64,000 nt of DNA from Rhodoferax potami (lineage in GTDB: Bacteria; Pseudomonadota; Gammaproteobacteria; Burkholderiales; Burkholderiaceae_C). Under the pieces are notes generated by a model. The model saw only the letters and a list, made by a program, of their open reading frames with translations. It was not told the origin of the DNA and did not search any database. Below are positions 43,142 through 48,651 of the stretch, piece after piece. Both the position numbers and the translations under genes were made by a program. Location: positions 1,984,001 through 2,048,000 of the forward strand of contig NZ_JAVBIJ010000001.1 of the NCBI RefSeq assembly GCF_032193765.1, read 5' to 3'. Position 1 is the stretch's first letter. Each line of letters starts with the position of its first letter.

Positions 43142-43729
43142 TCAGCGAATGATGATTTCTGCGCGGCGGTTGCGGGGTTCATTCACGTTGGCTTCGGTCG
43201 GGACCACCGGCTCACGCTCGCCACGGCCAATCGCCTCAATCCGCTCAGGCGCAAAGCCGCGCTGTACCAGCAGCTCACGCACCGCTTGCGCTCGCTGCAA
43301 TGACAAAGTGTCGTTGGCCTGCGGGCTCCCTGTGCGGTCGGTATGACCTACCACCAGAATTTCACCGCCGGCCCGCTTTGAAGCCAACGCAATGATCTCG
43401 GGGAGCTGGCCCTGAGACTCCGCCGTCAAATTGGATGTGCCGGGCTCAAACCGCAATGTCAATTGAGACGCTGTGGGCATCGGCAACGCCAGCAGCCCCT
43501 TGTATTTATCTTGAACTTCCTCAGCACTGAGTACGCCTGCTTCCAAGCGGCCGTCCTGCTGCAACGCTGCGGTTTGATAGGGCTGGGTCAGATCCACTAC
43601 TCCGCCGGCATTGCTCACCTGGACTGCGGTAGACCGGCCCGCACTGTCCGGCAACAAAATAACACGGCTTACAGGGGCACACGCTTGCAGGCCGAGCAAT
43701 GCGACAACAACTAGGTAACGCACGCTCAT
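43142..43729 (-). CDS. OmpA-domain lipoprotein
   Basis: The protein has 195 residues. The signal peptide MSVRYLVVVALLGLQAC ends with lipobox-like LQAC. The C-terminal OmpA domain (about 85-195) has LTLRFEPGTSNLT, GHTDRTGSPQANDTLSLQRA and NEPRNRRAEIIIR for peptidoglycan binding. It probably tethers the outer membrane to the wall. Its ATG overlaps the FecR-domain stop by 4 bp. Confidence 0.88.
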   Translation of the reverse strand: MSVRYLVVVALLGLQACAPVSRVILLPDSAGRSTAVQVSNAGGVVDLTQPYQTAALQQDGRLEAGVLSAEEVQDKYKGLLALPMPTASQLTLRFEPGTSNLTAESQGQLPEIIALASKRAGGEILVVGHTDRTGSPQANDTLSLQRAQAVRELLVQRGFAPERIEAIGRGEREPVVPTEANVNEPRNRRAEIIIR

Positions 43730-44199
43730 AGCACCTCCACAATGAAATCCGTGCCGCGCACACTGACGGTTGTGGCGGGCGTTGTCACTTTGACGTTGTC
43801 TGGTTGCACCTTGCCTAACAGGCCGGTCACCATCCGGATCGTGCCCTGCAGCACCCGGACTGCGAGGCTGCCTTGCTGGGTGGTGCCGTCAAACTGAAAG
43901 CGGCTGATATCGACGGTGGTGTTCGGGCCAATGGCAATCGAGGTACCGTCGCGCAGCATCAGCACCGCAGAACCGCTTGCATCGGTTTGGACTCTTTCTG
44001 CCTCTTGCACACCGGCACCGGGAATGACTGCGCGCTGGGCATCGCCTTGGACCACCTTGACACCGCCCTGCACAGTTTTAAACGTCCCACTGCGGGCCTC
44101 TTGCGCCATCACAGATGGACTCCAAAGGGCCAGCCCAAGGGTGCAGGCCAACATGGTGCTGCGCGTCAACGCTCTAAAACCGGTATGTGCTTGAGTCAT
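43726..44199 (-). CDS. FecR-domain periplasmic protein
   Basis: The protein has 157 residues. A signal peptide (LACTLGLALWSPSVMAQ) precedes a FecR domain: ERVQTDASGSAVLMLRDGTS, then IAIGPNTTVDI and TPATTVSVRGTDF. Unlike regulatory FecR it has no cytoplasmic anti-sigma part. Such proteins accompany OmpA-like lipoproteins, and often CHASE2 cyclases, in betaproteobacteria; no cyclase is present here. The role is unknown, perhaps cell-surface assembly. Confidence 0.85.
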   Translation of the reverse strand: MTQAHTGFRALTRSTMLACTLGLALWSPSVMAQEARSGTFKTVQGGVKVVQGDAQRAVIPGAGVQEAERVQTDASGSAVLMLRDGTSIAIGPNTTVDISRFQFDGTTQQGSLAVRVLQGTIRMVTGLLGKVQPDNVKVTTPATTVSVRGTDFIVEVL

Positions 44200-44364
44200 A
44201 GCCGGCGATGGTACCGGATCGGCGTGGTCTATTCCAGCAGGAGGAATGTAGGGATCGCGGTCAACGGTCGCATTGGCGCTATTGTTTTCGTAGCAATCCA
44301 TGAAGCGTTTCTGGCGGTGCTGTGCGAAAATAACCCTCTTTATCAAAGTTGGCCACTTAATCAC

Positions 44365-44592
44365 ATGTCTCGTCCCAGCGTTTGGGCCACCAAAGTGGCA
44401 GCACTCATCAAAGGCAACAACAGCCAGGCTGCGCTTGCACAGATCAAGGTCGCCCCGACCGTCAAAGACCTGCAACAACTGCGGGCGCTCATGACCGCAG
44501 ACGGCAGCCTGCTCAAGCACCGCCTGATCGACGAAGCGACCCGGGACCAGATCGTCGCCCTCTCGGCGCCCCGGCTGCACCGCTCACCCTGA
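44365..44592 (+). CDS. Small conserved-looking hypothetical protein
   Basis: The protein has 75 residues (MSRPSVWATKVAALIKGNNS...), predicted helical, Ala/Leu-rich, without a signal peptide. I recognise no domain. It is divergent from the FecR-domain gene, with 165 bp between starts, and 118 bp before the next lipoprotein gene. Protein-like composition and an isolated frame support coding, but only moderately. Confidence 0.55.
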   Translation: MSRPSVWATKVAALIKGNNSQAALAQIKVAPTVKDLQQLRALMTADGSLLKHRLIDEATRDQIVALSAPRLHRSP

Positions 44593-44725: not shown

Positions 44726-45100
44726 GTGAAGCTGTTCACTTTTGGCATTTTTTTGGCGCTTTTAACGGCCCTCTCAGGCTGCGGATTGGGCCCGTCCATG
44801 AGTCCAAGCGTCGCCTCAGCAACGACACCTGTCGCCACCCAAGCGGTACGCTTGATGGTGGGCACTCACGAAGCCATCCCTGAGGATCCCACAGCACTGG
44901 TGCGTAGCCTCTCTGCATCCACCGGTGCCGCATCCATCGTATTTGTGTCAAAGATATCAGCGACCAGCTGTTTGCTCGCCATCACTCCACAACCCGGGCA
45001 GACGACCCAAGACCTTGTGGCAAAACTCGCAAAGGCCCCCGGAGTGCGGTATGCCGAGTTGGATGCCAAAGCCATGCGAAATGAGGGACACTTGCGATGA
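44726..45100 (+). CDS. Lipoprotein resembling a subtilisin propeptide (I9-like)
   Basis: The protein has 124 residues from the GTG at 44726, preceded by GAGGGAG; an ATG at 44711 would add 5 residues. A lipoprotein signal (LFTFGIFLALLTALSGC) ends in lipobox LSGC. The C-terminal part TQDLVAKLAKAPGVRYAELD closely parallels the propeptide of the next gene (MQSVIAKLAKDPAVEYVEID), the closing part of the I9 inhibitor/chaperone fold. Its TGA overlaps the protease ATG by 4 bp. It may be a membrane-tethered inhibitor or folding helper (inference). Confidence 0.7.
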   Translation: MKLFTFGIFLALLTALSGCGLGPSMSPSVASATTPVATQAVRLMVGTHEAIPEDPTALVRSLSASTGAASIVFVSKISATSCLLAITPQPGQTTQDLVAKLAKAPGVRYAELDAKAMRNEGHLR

Positions 45101-47040
45101 GACCTTATTTGCGTTTACTCAAAAACGCCACCCTTAGCGCCCTTGCCCTCGGAGCGATACCCGCGCTTGCTGCGCTGCCCCTCTCTGAGGGCCCACCGGC
45201 CAAAGTCGCCCGCTCCGCCGCCTCCCTGGAGGGGGCGACGTACAGCCGGTTGATCATCAAATTCAAGACCCCCAAAGAGTCCAAAGCCGCTCACCTCTTC
45301 GCAGAGACCAGCGACAGGGAACGTGTTCAAGGTTTGAAAGAGCGCGCGGCCAGCACTGTGGCTGGGCACGAATTGAACCTGCGCCACCTGAAAACCATCT
45401 ACAACGGCATCCAGGTGGCGAGTACCGGCGCCCCCTTGACCCGGCCGGAAATGCAGTCGGTCATCGCCAAGCTGGCCAAAGACCCTGCGGTGGAGTATGT
45501 CGAGATTGATGAGCGCGTGCAAGCGCACCTGACGCCGAACGATACGTTTTTCAGCAGCTTATGGAACCTCAAATCACCTGCTGGGGCGGTCGGCGGGGCC
45601 AATTTCCAGCTCGCATGGGATCGGATGATCGGATCCAGCACCCCGGTGACGGGTGCGGGGGTGATCGTGGCGGTGTTGGACTCGGGGTATCGCCCCCATC
45701 CGGACTTGGCAGCCAACGTGTTGCAGGGCTACGATTTCATTTCAGCCGATAACCCGCCCATCAACACCACGTTTACAACGGCGAATGACGGAGATGGGCG
45801 TGACGATAACCCCACAGACCCCGGAGACTGGAATTCCAACGTGAGCGATTGCGCAGTGGAGGACTCCAGCTGGCACGGTACCCATGTCGCAGGAACCATT
45901 GCCGCAGTTGCCAATAACAGCAGCGGCGTTATCGGGGGTGCTTTCGGCGCCAAGATACTGCCGGTTCGGGTGTTGGGGGTATGCGGTGGTTACTCATCGG
46001 ATATCCAGGAAGGAATGTATTGGGCTGCAGGCCTTCGCCAAGTGAATGGCGTCACCAACCCGAATATCGCCAAAGTCATCAACATGAGCCTGGGTAGCAC
46101 GGGAAGCTGCTCCGACTCGTATAGGGATGCCGTCAACGCAGTTGTGACGGCAGGCACCACCGTGGTGGTGTCGGCCGGGAATGACGACGGGGGCCCCGTC
46201 TCCTCGCCGGCGAATTGCAGCGGCGTGATTGCGGTTACCGCCCACACCATCACGGGGGAGAAATCAAGCTTCGCCAACGTCGGTGCGCAAGTCGCCCTCA
46301 GTGCACCCGGGTCCAGCATTTTTTCCACCGACAACACGGGCCGGACCACGCCTCAGAGCGATGCGATCTTGCTCAAAAGCGGCACCAGCATGGCTGCGCC
46401 GCATGTTGCCGCGGCCGCCGCACTCCTGCTGCAAATCAAGCCAACCCTGACACCAGCACAAATTGCAGCGCTGTTGAAGAACAACACGCGCCCCTTCCGG
46501 TCGGGGACTGTTTGCGCATCATTGACCACCTGCGGCACCGGCATGTTGGATGCCTTTGCAGCGGTGAAGGCCTTGCAGGTGAGTGAGGGCTCTGCGTCAA
46601 ACACTCCACCTTCCATGACGTCGGCGCCCACGCAAACTGGTACCGAAGGCATCGACCTCCAATTTGACTTTACCGCCGTTGATGCAGACTCGGATACGGT
46701 CACGTTCTCCAGCTCCGGGTTACCCGCAGGGGCGACACTCAGCAGCACAGGCCGCTTCCGTTGGAGTATCCCCGTGCTCGGAACCTATAGCTTCACCGTC
46801 ACCCCCAGCGATACCAGCCGCTCAGGCATGCCGCAAACGGTCACGCTCACCATCAACTCCGCGACCCTTGCCACCGCAAGTAGCAGCGGAGGGGGTGGCG
46901 GGGGCGGCACGATGTCGGGATGGGAGCTAGCGCTCGTCGCTTTGCTGGCGATGCGTGGTCTGCGCAGGCGTCGTCTTCCTGCGCATGAAGAAACTCGCCA
47001 TTGCAAGTCCGCCAACAAGCCCTGCCCAATGGGCGGGTAG
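45097..47040 (+). CDS. Secreted subtilisin-like (S8) protease with GlyGly-CTERM-like tail
   Basis: The protein has 647 residues. Signal peptide (1-25); I9-like propeptide (about 48-145); S8 catalytic domain with Asp195 (VAVLDSGYRPHPD), His260 (SWHGTHVAGTIAA) and Ser431 (LLKSGTSMAAPHVAAAAALL); an Ig-like domain (about 505-590). The C-terminus has a Gly run 598-604, a hydrophobic helix (GWELALVALLAMRGL) and RRRR, the layout of GlyGly-CTERM signals cut by rhombosortase. A 21-residue tail continues past the arginines, which is unusual. It overlaps the upstream lipoprotein by 4 bp and the convergent rhomboid gene by 114 bp. Confidence 0.92.
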   Translation: MRPYLRLLKNATLSALALGAIPALAALPLSEGPPAKVARSAASLEGATYSRLIIKFKTPKESKAAHLFAETSDRERVQGLKERAASTVAGHELNLRHLKTIYNGIQVASTGAPLTRPEMQSVIAKLAKDPAVEYVEIDERVQAHLTPNDTFFSSLWNLKSPAGAVGGANFQLAWDRMIGSSTPVTGAGVIVAVLDSGYRPHPDLAANVLQGYDFISADNPPINTTFTTANDGDGRDDNPTDPGDWNSNVSDCAVEDSSWHGTHVAGTIAAVANNSSGVIGGAFGAKILPVRVLGVCGGYSSDIQEGMYWAAGLRQVNGVTNPNIAKVINMSLGSTGSCSDSYRDAVNAVVTAGTTVVVSAGNDDGGPVSSPANCSGVIAVTAHTITGEKSSFANVGAQVALSAPGSSIFSTDNTGRTTPQSDAILLKSGTSMAAPHVAAAAALLLQIKPTLTPAQIAALLKNNTRPFRSGTVCASLTTCGTGMLDAFAAVKALQVSEGSASNTPPSMTSAPTQTGTEGIDLQFDFTAVDADSDTVTFSSSGLPAGATLSSTGRFRWSIPVLGTYSFTVTPSDTSRSGMPQTVTLTINSATLATASSSGGGGGGGTMSGWELALVALLAMRGLRRRRLPAHEETRHCKSANKPCPMGG

Positions 47041-47469
47041 ATAGACTGGAAAGCCCCACGCTGTAGCGCCAACCCCGGCCCACTGCATCGCCACCAAGCG
47101 CACCAGCAACAGGCACAACACAAAAAGTGCGATCCGCCGGTGGGGTTGGGAAGTGACGCTCTCGGAAAAAATCGTCATCATGCACCCGCCCGCGGCCCAC
47201 CCGTACAGCGCGCCAGAGGCACCCGCGTAGTAGGCACAGTTCGCATCAGACACCACGACCATAGCAACGGCGAATGCGCTTCCCAAAATCAAGGCGCACT
47301 GCTGTGCCCAAACCAGCATCGGCCGGAATAGCGCGGCCAACAACAGCGCGACCATCGCATTGGACATGCCGTGCGCAAGATTGAAGTGCACCAGCTGTGC
47401 CGTGAACGGCAGCCACCACTGGCCATCCAGAAATGCCTGGCGGTGATAGATCAGCGCGGCGAAGTCCAT
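46927..47469 (-). CDS. Rhomboid-family protease, rhombosortase type
   Basis: The protein has 180 residues with about five membrane helices. It has the H/N pattern HFNLAHGMSNAMV, catalytic Ser in GASGALYGWAAGG and catalytic His in LPAHWAGLVGGLAM. Rhombosortases process GlyGly-CTERM proteins, and the adjacent S8 protease carries such a tail, so it is the likely partner. An in-frame TGA five codons before the ATG fixes the start, so the N-terminal helix of six-helix rhomboids appears absent. It lies 20 bp after nagZ on the same strand and overlaps the protease gene. Confidence 0.82.
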   Translation of the reverse strand: MDFAALIYHRQAFLDGQWWLPFTAQLVHFNLAHGMSNAMVALLLAALFRPMLVWAQQCALILGSAFAVAMVVVSDANCAYYAGASGALYGWAAGGCMMTIFSESVTSQPHRRIALFVLCLLLVRLVAMQWAGVGATAWGFPVYLPAHWAGLVGGLAMASFFMRRKTTPAQTTHRQQSDER

Positions 47470-47489: not shown

Positions 47490-48593
47490 TCAGGCGATCC
47501 AGTCCAGTGCCTGCATGTAGTCGGGGTGCACCATGAGGTCGTCCCACGCCATGGCAGGGCTGGTAGGCAGCAATGCGCGGCGGCGGGCTTCGCTCGCCTC
47601 CAGTGCCTGCCACTGACCTTTAAGCTGGGCTTCGGTCAGGCCGTCGATCAATTCGTCCACCGCTTTGCCACCGCCCTCGGCATTGGCCATGGACTGGTTG
47701 CACAAGAGCACCAAGTCGCAGCCTGCGTTTAACGCCACCACAGCCGCTTCGGTGTAGCTCACGGTTTTACCGTCGATCAAGCGGGCGCCGGCCATGGACA
47801 GGTCGTCACTGAAAATGGCGCCGGTAAAGCCCAACTGGCCACGCAGGATGTCGTTCAACCACACGCTCGAGAAGCCCGCAGGGCGGCTGTCGACCTTGGG
47901 GTAAATCACGTGGGCAGGCATCACGCTGCTGGTCACGGTGTTGAGCCAACGGTACGGTGCGGCGTCGTCCGCCAAAATGGCTTTTAGGCTGCGCTTGTCT
48001 ACGGGGATGTCGATGTGCGAGTCGGCTTTCACAAAGCCATGGCCGGGGAAGTGCTTGCCGCAATTGGCCATGCCGCTTTTTTGCAAACCGTGCATCAGGC
48101 TCTTGGCCAGCATGCTCACCACACGCGGGTCGCGCGCAAACGCGCGGTCGCCGATAACACTGCTCTCGCCGTAGTCGAGGTCCAGCACCGGCGTGAAGCT
48201 CATATCCACGCCACAGGCGCGCAACTCGGCGCCCATCACATAACCGGTAGCGGTGGCCGCGTTGGTAGCGTCCAAGGCGCCCGCCTTCTTGGCGGAGGTG
48301 GTGGGCACGATGTCACGCATCCACATCTCACCCAAGGCGCGCATGGGCGGCAAGTGGGTGAAGCCGTCGGTCTTGAAACGCTGCACACGGCCGCCTTCAT
48401 GGTCCACGCAGATCAGCAAATCCGCGCGCACTTTCTTGATGTCGCGGCACAGCGCGGTGAGTTGCTCGCGGTTTTGCCAGTTGCGGGCAAACAAAATCAT
48501 GCCCCCCACCAGCGGGTGCTTCAAGCGCTTGCGGTCTACGGCGGTGAGGCTGGTGCCGGCGATATCGATGATCAGAGGGGCGTGGAATGTCAT
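47490..48593 (-). CDS. nagZ: Beta-N-acetylhexosaminidase
   Basis: The protein has 367 residues, glycoside hydrolase family 3: CVDHEGGRVQRFK, the His/Asp loop CGKHFPGHGFVKADSH and the nucleophile Asp in IFSDDLSMAGA. NagZ removes GlcNAc from muropeptides in the cytoplasm during wall recycling. The ATG at 48593 (MTFHAP) is preferred over one 18 bp upstream. It lies in the run after acpS, separated by a dispersed repeat. Confidence 0.95.
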   Translation of the reverse strand: MTFHAPLIIDIAGTSLTAVDRKRLKHPLVGGMILFARNWQNREQLTALCRDIKKVRADLLICVDHEGGRVQRFKTDGFTHLPPMRALGEMWMRDIVPTTSAKKAGALDATNAATATGYVMGAELRACGVDMSFTPVLDLDYGESSVIGDRAFARDPRVVSMLAKSLMHGLQKSGMANCGKHFPGHGFVKADSHIDIPVDKRSLKAILADDAAPYRWLNTVTSSVMPAHVIYPKVDSRPAGFSSVWLNDILRGQLGFTGAIFSDDLSMAGARLIDGKTVSYTEAAVVALNAGCDLVLLCNQSMANAEGGGKAVDELIDGLTEAQLKGQWQALEASEARRRALLPTSPAMAWDDLMVHPDYMQALDWIA

Positions 48594-48600
48594 AGTGTTT

Positions 48601-48651
48601 ATTGCTATCAATTCAGGAGCTACTCGCGCATATTCTATGAGCGCCAGCGGC
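48601..48651. repeat. Dispersed palindromic repeat, copy 7
   Basis: The plus strand ATTGCTATCAATTCAGGAGC, TACTCGCGCATATTC and GAGCGCCAGCGGC is a full copy in the acpS-nagZ gap, 7 bp upstream of nagZ. Confidence 0.75.

Follow-up and report, generated by a model that had tools for sequence, protein, structure and literature searches.

How might a bacterium bring one particular subtilisin-like protease to its surface, and which partners would be dedicated to that task? The question is raised by three genes packed into 2.7 kb (positions 44726 to 47469) of a 64,000-nucleotide stretch of the Rhodoferax potami genome, here called the window (contig NZ_JAVBIJ010000001.1, positions 1,984,001 to 2,048,000). 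A lipoprotein gene (44726..45100, plus strand, GTG start at 44726 and stop ending at 45100, 124 amino acids) is followed by the gene of an S8 (subtilisin-like) protease (45097..47040, plus strand, 647 amino acids; Pfam S8 at 2.3e-58, He_PIG at 2.7e-9), which runs convergently into the gene of a rhombosortase-like rhomboid with five helices (46927..47469, minus strand, 180 amino acids; TIGR03902 at 6.2e-23, 81.4 bits). An original prediction, made from the sequence, had described these three genes with overlaps of 4 bp (lipoprotein/protease) and 114 bp (protease/rhomboid), and the open reading frames (ORFs) and both overlaps were found again as stated. Homology, gene linkage, co-occurrence and selection make it likely that the locus is a dedicated surface-display system for this one protease; cutting, lipid transfer, surface display and inhibition are predicted from them. 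The locus is real and probably functional, and its GlyGly-CTERM/rhombosortase-like, one-enzyme, one-target type is already published (PMC3237569, used here, like the other papers cited, in excerpts). Beyond that type it would add a free, lipid-anchored propeptide, a rhomboid lacking its first transmembrane helix (TM1), and relatives that have no local rhomboid but possess another rhombosortase.

Protease, tail and rhomboid as a pair

The protease consists of a signal peptide (recognized by eye), a propeptide of its own (45235..45522, plus strand, about residues 47-142), an S8 catalytic domain (45652..46488, plus strand) with the triad, assigned by eye, of Asp in VLDSG, His in HGTHVAG and Ser in GTSMAAPH, an immunoglobulin-like domain (2.7e-9) and a GlyGly-CTERM-like tail (46888..46974, plus strand). 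This tail comprises seven Gly residues (46888-46908), a hydrophobic helix and RRRR (46963-46974), as the original prediction had it, and 21 more residues, omitted there, separate RRRR from the stop codon; the C-terminal sequence reads SSSGGGGGGGTMSGWELALVALLAMRGLRRRR. The parts of a GlyGly-CTERM protein are thus present: a Gly-rich motif without Cys, a transmembrane helix, a basic cluster and, by eye, a signal peptide. Each of the 39 aligned tails has a run of Gly ahead of a hydrophobic helix, with GGG in 38 and GG in L073. On the side of the rhomboid, the predicted GASG and AHWAGLVGG elements were recovered within YAGASGALYG and PAHWAGLVGG, with catalytic Ser85 in GASG and His147 in AHxxGxxxG. 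All 25 aligned rhomboids keep the catalytic Ser and His, the two His and the Asn of HxxxHxxxN, and the Gly of GxxxG; in a 34-row alignment the same residues are invariant in every row except for the Asn of HxxxHxxxN, which is kept in at least 90%.

The source genome (4.0 Mb, 99.95% complete) encodes two S8 proteases, of which only that of the window carries the tail, and a type II secretin. Searched with a tail profile to which the tail of the window protease itself contributed, it yields this protease at 1.5e-16 (partly a self-match) and the next candidate at 0.07, so that the listing of GlyGly-CTERM proteins proposed by the original prediction returns one confident member, single and adjacent to the rhomboid (by this custom profile, not by TIGR03501). 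Further candidates (E of 0.07 and up, and one TIGR03501 match at E 1.07) were rejected, the ORF ends inspected in both orientations showing no Gly run before a C-terminal helix, a rejection that relies on the script's placement of the matches; the best of them, C1:4055, ends PLWLIALAVLAVLWRQRDSHPPS. Another rhombosortase in the genome was what the prediction had named as speaking against it, and none exists at rhombosortase level besides the rhomboid of the window, the other rhomboid (C1:917072) reaching 45 bits with TIGR03902.

The same pairing is seen across 100 genomes of the genus, including Rhodoferax bucti (G233). TIGR03902 matches at E ≤ 0.001 in 46 of them; as rhombosortase-bearing we counted the 37 with at least 68 bits, the next lower score being 54.6 bits, and a relative of the S8 protease was counted at E ≤ 1e-40 (40 genomes). 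Protease and rhombosortase occur together in 36 genomes, the rhombosortase by itself in 1, the protease by itself in 4 and neither in 59. Among the four with the protease alone, the contig of G242 ends within the gene, only 76 bases of contig lie beyond the gene in G223, and the protease of G208 lacks a Gly tail; in G214, where nothing matches at rhombosortase level, an S8-family protease carries a Gly tail (L182:2302-4080) that is thereby an orphan. In G291, the sole genome with only the rhombosortase, a rhombotarget lipoprotein adjoins that enzyme (L058, TIGR04179 at 290.5 bits). The dedicated pair of the original prediction is hence well supported by comparison, that is, by a single tail, a single rhombosortase-like gene and co-occurrence in 36 of 100 genomes.

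Gene order in the 37 rhombosortase-bearing genomes takes several forms: a convergent, overlapping pair in 22, a pair on one strand in 11, nagZ and the protease with no rhomboid in between in 3 and no S8 protease in 1. What we take to be nagZ is the host neighbour gene at 47490..48611 of the window, on the strand of the rhomboid (minus) and outside the sorting system; its position is conserved among the relatives compared, and 20 of the 22 convergent pairs adjoin it. The second layout, with overlapping frames on the same strand (L061, L065, L071, L073, L075, L081, L082, L083, L086, L087 and L090), also combines an S8 protease bearing a tail of Gly motif, helix and basic residues with a rhombosortase, here from a separate rhomboid clade. 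In the three genomes without the intervening rhomboid (G230, G260 and G292), nagZ and the gene of the Gly-tailed protease overlap at the end of the latter, the protease tail runs into the end of nagZ and has no Arg cluster after its helix, the lipoprotein is retained, and 25 rhombosortase queries found no match at the site, an absence that we read as loss. Elsewhere, on a separate contig, each of these genomes encodes a different rhombosortase (92.6, 92.6 and 99.0 bits), as compared with a second rhombosortase in 2 of 33 genomes with a local pair (G211 and G234). Such a replacement would be expected if a rhombosortase is needed; the loci being related, it is a pattern rather than a test.

Selection on the genes of the locus is purifying, and together with the recurrence of the convergent overlap and of the tail in relatives this indicates that the arrangement is no chance product. 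In pairs of the four genomes of the window clade, the ratio of nonsynonymous to synonymous substitution rates (dN/dS) is 0.11-0.16 for the rhomboid outside the overlap, 0.07-0.10 for the protease and 0.18-0.43 for the lipoprotein.

The rhomboid and its missing helix

Several observations weigh against the assignment to the GlyGly-CTERM/rhombosortase type. The original prediction had proposed running the family models on both proteins and had taken their failure as grounds for refutation, which has in part come about: TIGR03501 does not match the window tail at E ≤ 10, and TIGR03902 matches the rhomboid over model positions 3-153 of 154 with a score short of the curated cut-off of 84 bits. The 21 residues after RRRR compare with zero to five allowed for the extreme C-terminal place of a GlyGly-CTERM tail. 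In the rhomboid, the His of the rhombosortase motif SGxLH is replaced by Tyr (SGALY), the WRxxS/T of loop L1 is absent (WLPFT in the window), and TM1 is missing, whereas rhomboid proteases are described with at least six membrane helices (PMC3237569). The same excerpts report that SIMBAL found the His after SGxL to predict GlyGly-CTERM genomes best, and Haft and Varghese state there that the GlyGly-CTERM tail model misses some true cases.

Relatives help to judge these deviations. TIGR03501 matches 11 of the 39 rows of the tail alignment, at best with 0.018, and other convergent loci of the genus exceed the TIGR03902 cut-off, with up to 96 bits (G206). This suggests that the scores below cut-off reflect limits of model sensitivity, and we did not follow the option of rejecting the pair on the two cut-offs alone. 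For comparison, a class sample was assembled from 40 loci, the 30 best of a class search that matched 128 genomes and 10 more chosen for short open frames. The position after SGxL holds His in 19, Tyr in 5 (the window included) and Gln in 1 of 25 aligned rhomboids, and His in 37 of the 40 rhombosortases of the class sample; the Arg of WRxxS/T occurs in 0 of the 25 and, by eye, in 39 of the 40. Searches of the PDB with the rhomboid profile (E ≤ 0.1) and Foldseek searches with the rhomboid model (E ≤ 0.001) gave no match, and a second structure aligner ranked GlpG first for the model. The window rhomboid, rhombosortase-like by linkage and failing several strict marks, is best filed as a divergent rhombosortase-like enzyme.

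The most conspicuous of its deviations is the loss of TM1. No hydrophobic helix precedes loop L1, and the structure model shows five long helices; by sequence and model, loop L1, the catalytic Ser and His and the HxxxN helix are kept. The N terminus of the rhomboid is predicted to lie in the periplasm. The rhomboid ATG lies 20 bp beyond the nagZ stop, in a different frame, and an in-frame TGA (47484-47482) stands four codons upstream of it; therefore TM1 cannot be encoded upstream in the rhomboid frame. TM1 is lacking in 15 of 70 scored rhomboid ORFs, a count that leaves out L118 with its broken frame and includes L126 and L175 as having TM1, though no start codon ahead of the helix was picked up by the script. 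Elsewhere in the class, all 40 rhombosortases read possess it by a 19-residue mean hydropathy above 1.2, two loci being borderline (1.21 and 1.22); in the order sample, 16 of the 18 other matches were scored and two fell below the script's 50-bit limit. The rhomboid tree, which left out L055, L056, L058, L062, L064, L074, L166, L173, L118 and all ORFs below 100 bits and added 9 of 38 proteins from the protein set, needs three changes of TM1, or two if L022 is excluded. A frameshift or assembly error possibly explains the absence in L022, for which the contig title gives cov 2.1. Such an error is unlikely for the window, given that three near relatives share the loss and that 15 of the 70 ORFs lack TM1. 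The TM1-less start MDFAALIYHRQ, or a close variant, is conserved across many genomes, and dN/dS of the rhomboid in a second TM1-less clade is 0.12-0.29.

The convergent overlap itself (46927..47040, both strands, 114 bp) is in register: the rhomboid stop TAG faces a Leu codon of the protease tail helix, and the codon of catalytic His147 (47031-47029) is the complement of that of protease Met645, whereas the Ser85 codon is situated beyond the overlap. Such an overlap is seen again in 34 tabulated loci from the genus, Polaromonas, Curvibacter, Malikia and metagenome-assembled genomes, its length being divisible by 3 in 33 of these related and hence non-independent loci. Of the antisense frames, the one in register is the likeliest to remain open when the DNA is rich in G+C. 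Because of this and of the relatedness of the loci, drift of stop codons explains the multiples of three, and the idea of a functional antisense device was dropped.

The lipoprotein as a probable second propeptide

The lipoprotein of the window has a signal with lipobox LSGC, Cys19 and Gly at +2. A Gly following the lipid-bearing Cys suggests the outer membrane. A hydrophobic signal and the lipobox Cys characterize the family, Cys19 being present in at least 90% of 49 family rows; the script's lipobox pattern went unmatched in L105 and L108 among the 21 convergent loci with a lipoprotein. After the signal follow a linker modelled with low confidence and a domain of 80 residues homologous to subtilase propeptides.

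Evidence for this homology comes from several comparisons. Aligned by hhalign with the propeptides of the neighbouring proteases, the lipoproteins give 96.8% at E 3e-10 (with L072 dropped, since the pattern saw no lipobox although LWAC is there, and L084 trimmed at a wrong Cys). A profile rebuilt from lipoproteins only and searched against one locus at a time recovers, at E ≤ 2.6e-4, the propeptide of the adjacent protease in 32 of 39 loci, finds none in L022, L025, L027, L078, L088 and L118 and is weak in L091 (1.6e-3). For the window propeptide the value is 2.8e-5, with the best stretch around residues 119-142, and for relatives it reaches 1.4e-10. In a PDB sequence search with the lipoprotein profile the ten top matches are subtilisin propeptides, and the Fervidolysin prodomain model matches 25 of 49 family members at E ≤ 1; the window lipoprotein scores 17.1 bits with Pfam PF22148, below the cut-off of 21, and Foldseek with the lipoprotein model found no match at E ≤ 0.001. 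In propeptides a D-x-K-A motif sits just before the enzyme, and most of the lipoprotein rows shown end within five residues of this motif, that of the window eight residues past it. The longer C-terminal end is found also in protein P0130; in the three nearest relatives fetched (L076, L079 and L084) the lipoprotein ends five residues sooner, and the 4-bp overlap with the protease gene is accordingly not general. A C terminus close to the would-be propeptide cut site would be expected of an inhibitor that inserts this end into the active site.

On sequence grounds, then, the lipoprotein is a homologue of the propeptides that the adjacent proteases carry, and it appears to be an extra propeptide, encoded on its own and anchored by lipid. 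The original suggestion of an inhibitor or chaperone stands as far as homology to subtilase propeptides goes, the inhibitory or chaperone role itself being a prediction. Its gene lies directly upstream of the protease gene on the same strand in 21 of the 34 convergent loci; 12 have no lipoprotein, and in L022 the contig ends first. Among 100 family members listed, none has a precomputed Pfam domain, and the names are mostly "hypothetical protein" (P0126 is named otherwise), so that the family would gain a testable role as membrane-tethered propeptides.

Upstream of the cassette lie genes at 43142-44580 (minus strand) whose products are presumably an OmpA-like lipoprotein and a FecR-like secreted protein, neighbours found also in L063, L076, L079, L088 and L089. 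A small conserved ORF (44365-44592, plus strand, 75 amino acids, beginning MSRPSVWATKVAALIKGNNSQAALAQIKVAPTVKDLQQLRALMTADG) is situated between the FecR-like gene and the lipoprotein gene; similar ORFs are present in L088 and L070.

Proposed mechanism, alternatives and known systems

The mechanism we propose is taken from VesB and RssP of Vibrio cholerae, where the enzyme cuts in the Gly motif, a glycerophosphoethanolamine-containing moiety is attached and type II secretion leads to the surface (Gadwal 2018, PMC6219818). The protease would leave the cytoplasm together with its own propeptide and stay in the inner membrane, anchored there by the tail of Gly run, helix and Arg cluster. The adjacent rhomboid, acting with five helices, would cut at the Gly run and probably pass the new C terminus to lipid as RssP does, to judge from homology and gene linkage, and type II secretion might then place the protease on the cell surface. 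The lipoprotein most likely would aid folding of the protease and plug its active site with its C-terminal end in the periplasm until exit. A further proposal, which we hold tentatively, is that five-helix rhomboids can work, TM1 having been shed three times at this nagZ-side locus type, always with a substrate encoded next door, and that the tail helix of the substrate or lipid may take the place of TM1. If true, this would make, together with the lipid-tethered propeptide, a closed one-substrate machine, with 2.7 kb of DNA providing for the folding of one protease, its inhibition, its release from the membrane and its anchoring at the surface.

The rhomboid might instead be a decaying or inactive remnant that no longer cuts, the protease being simply anchored in the membrane by its tail. 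The absence of TM1, SGxLH and WRxxS/T in the window protein, the score below the curated cut-off and the missing gene in three relatives would fit this; purifying selection in both TM1-less clades, the invariant catalytic, HxxxHxxxN His and GxxxG Gly residues, the conserved TM1-less start and the other rhombosortase in all three genomes without the local gene make it distinctly unlikely. Less probable still is a chance neighbourhood, with the tail processed by the rhomboid C1:917072 or by another protease: two rhomboids do act on VesB in V. cholerae (PMC11389362) and a second rhomboid is present here, but it scores like the rhomboids of genomes without a rhombosortase (36-55 bits), and co-occurrence and adjacency extend over two layouts and several genera. 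For the lipoprotein, a role as adaptor, such as a docking factor that delivers the enzyme to either rhomboid or secretion machinery, or as protector of the periplasm against other subtilases rather than as inhibitor or foldase seems rather unlikely. A protease with its own propeptide does not need a second one for folding, and 12 of 34 convergent loci do without the lipoprotein; yet its domain is a propeptide domain with its C terminus near the propeptide/enzyme junction, and wherever a convergent locus has it, its neighbour is the protease. The preferred reading thus remains that of a display system with an active rhomboid and a propeptide-like lipoprotein. Being one-to-one, with natural absences and replacements, the pair offers a clean test bed for the choice of targets by rhombosortases, and a TM1-less clade under purifying selection with its likely substrate next door allows the purpose of TM1 to be probed directly.

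Among known rhomboids, GlpG shares with the window protein the catalytic dyad, the HxxxN helix, AHxxGxxxG and the fold of its residues 114-270, and differs in having six helices. Presumably, the window rhomboid begins about where TM1 of GlpG ends. None of the papers listed by our search of the open-access literature, outside which most subscription journals lie, dealt with a rhombosortase lacking TM1 or with a lipoprotein that resembles a propeptide and neighbours a subtilase. Rhombotarget lipoproteins (TIGR04179) also reside beside rhombosortases, yet they carry the Gly tail themselves and are the target, unlike the tailless, propeptide-like lipoprotein of the window. Three from the genus score above the cut-off of 150 bits (L064:5822-6685 with 288, L058:1776-2780 with 290.5 and L074:5960-6619 with 252.3 bits), all ending in a Gly motif, a helix and KRR and encoded directly upstream of a different rhombosortase clade.

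Separate proteins acting on subtilases are known as well. ORF2, the external chaperone beside the subtilisin-type serine protease of Aeromonas sobria (ASP), places its C-terminal end at the active site, aids maturation and inhibits (PMC5638518). ASP is called propeptide-deficient in a title cited there, whereas the window protease keeps its own propeptide, and ORF2, likened here by description, is encoded downstream, no lipid anchor being mentioned in the excerpts. SUB1-ProM of Plasmodium is a stand-alone propeptide beside subtilase genes that inhibits the enzyme in trans; it is eukaryotic, and the excerpts of PMC6993865 mention neither a lipid anchor nor a sorting rhomboid.

Closest to the locus are the systems with a Gly-rich tail. 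VesB resembles the window protease as a Gly-rich-tailed serine protease processed by a rhombosortase and brought to the surface by type II secretion; it differs in being trypsin-like and in coming from a host with six GlyGly-CTERM proteins in all, with no lipoprotein propeptide described in the excerpts of PMC6219818. With the GlyGly-CTERM/rhombosortase system of PMC3237569 (TIGR03501, TIGR03902) the window shares the tripartite protease tail, the rhomboid subfamily and the adjacency to a single target, the pair being at most one gene apart in 16 of 21 one-target genomes and S8 proteases being among the targets there. It departs from that system in a TIGR03501-negative tail with 21 residues beyond, in an enzyme just below the TIGR03902 cut-off without TM1, with Tyr for His after SGAL and WL for WR, and in the additional propeptide lipoprotein.

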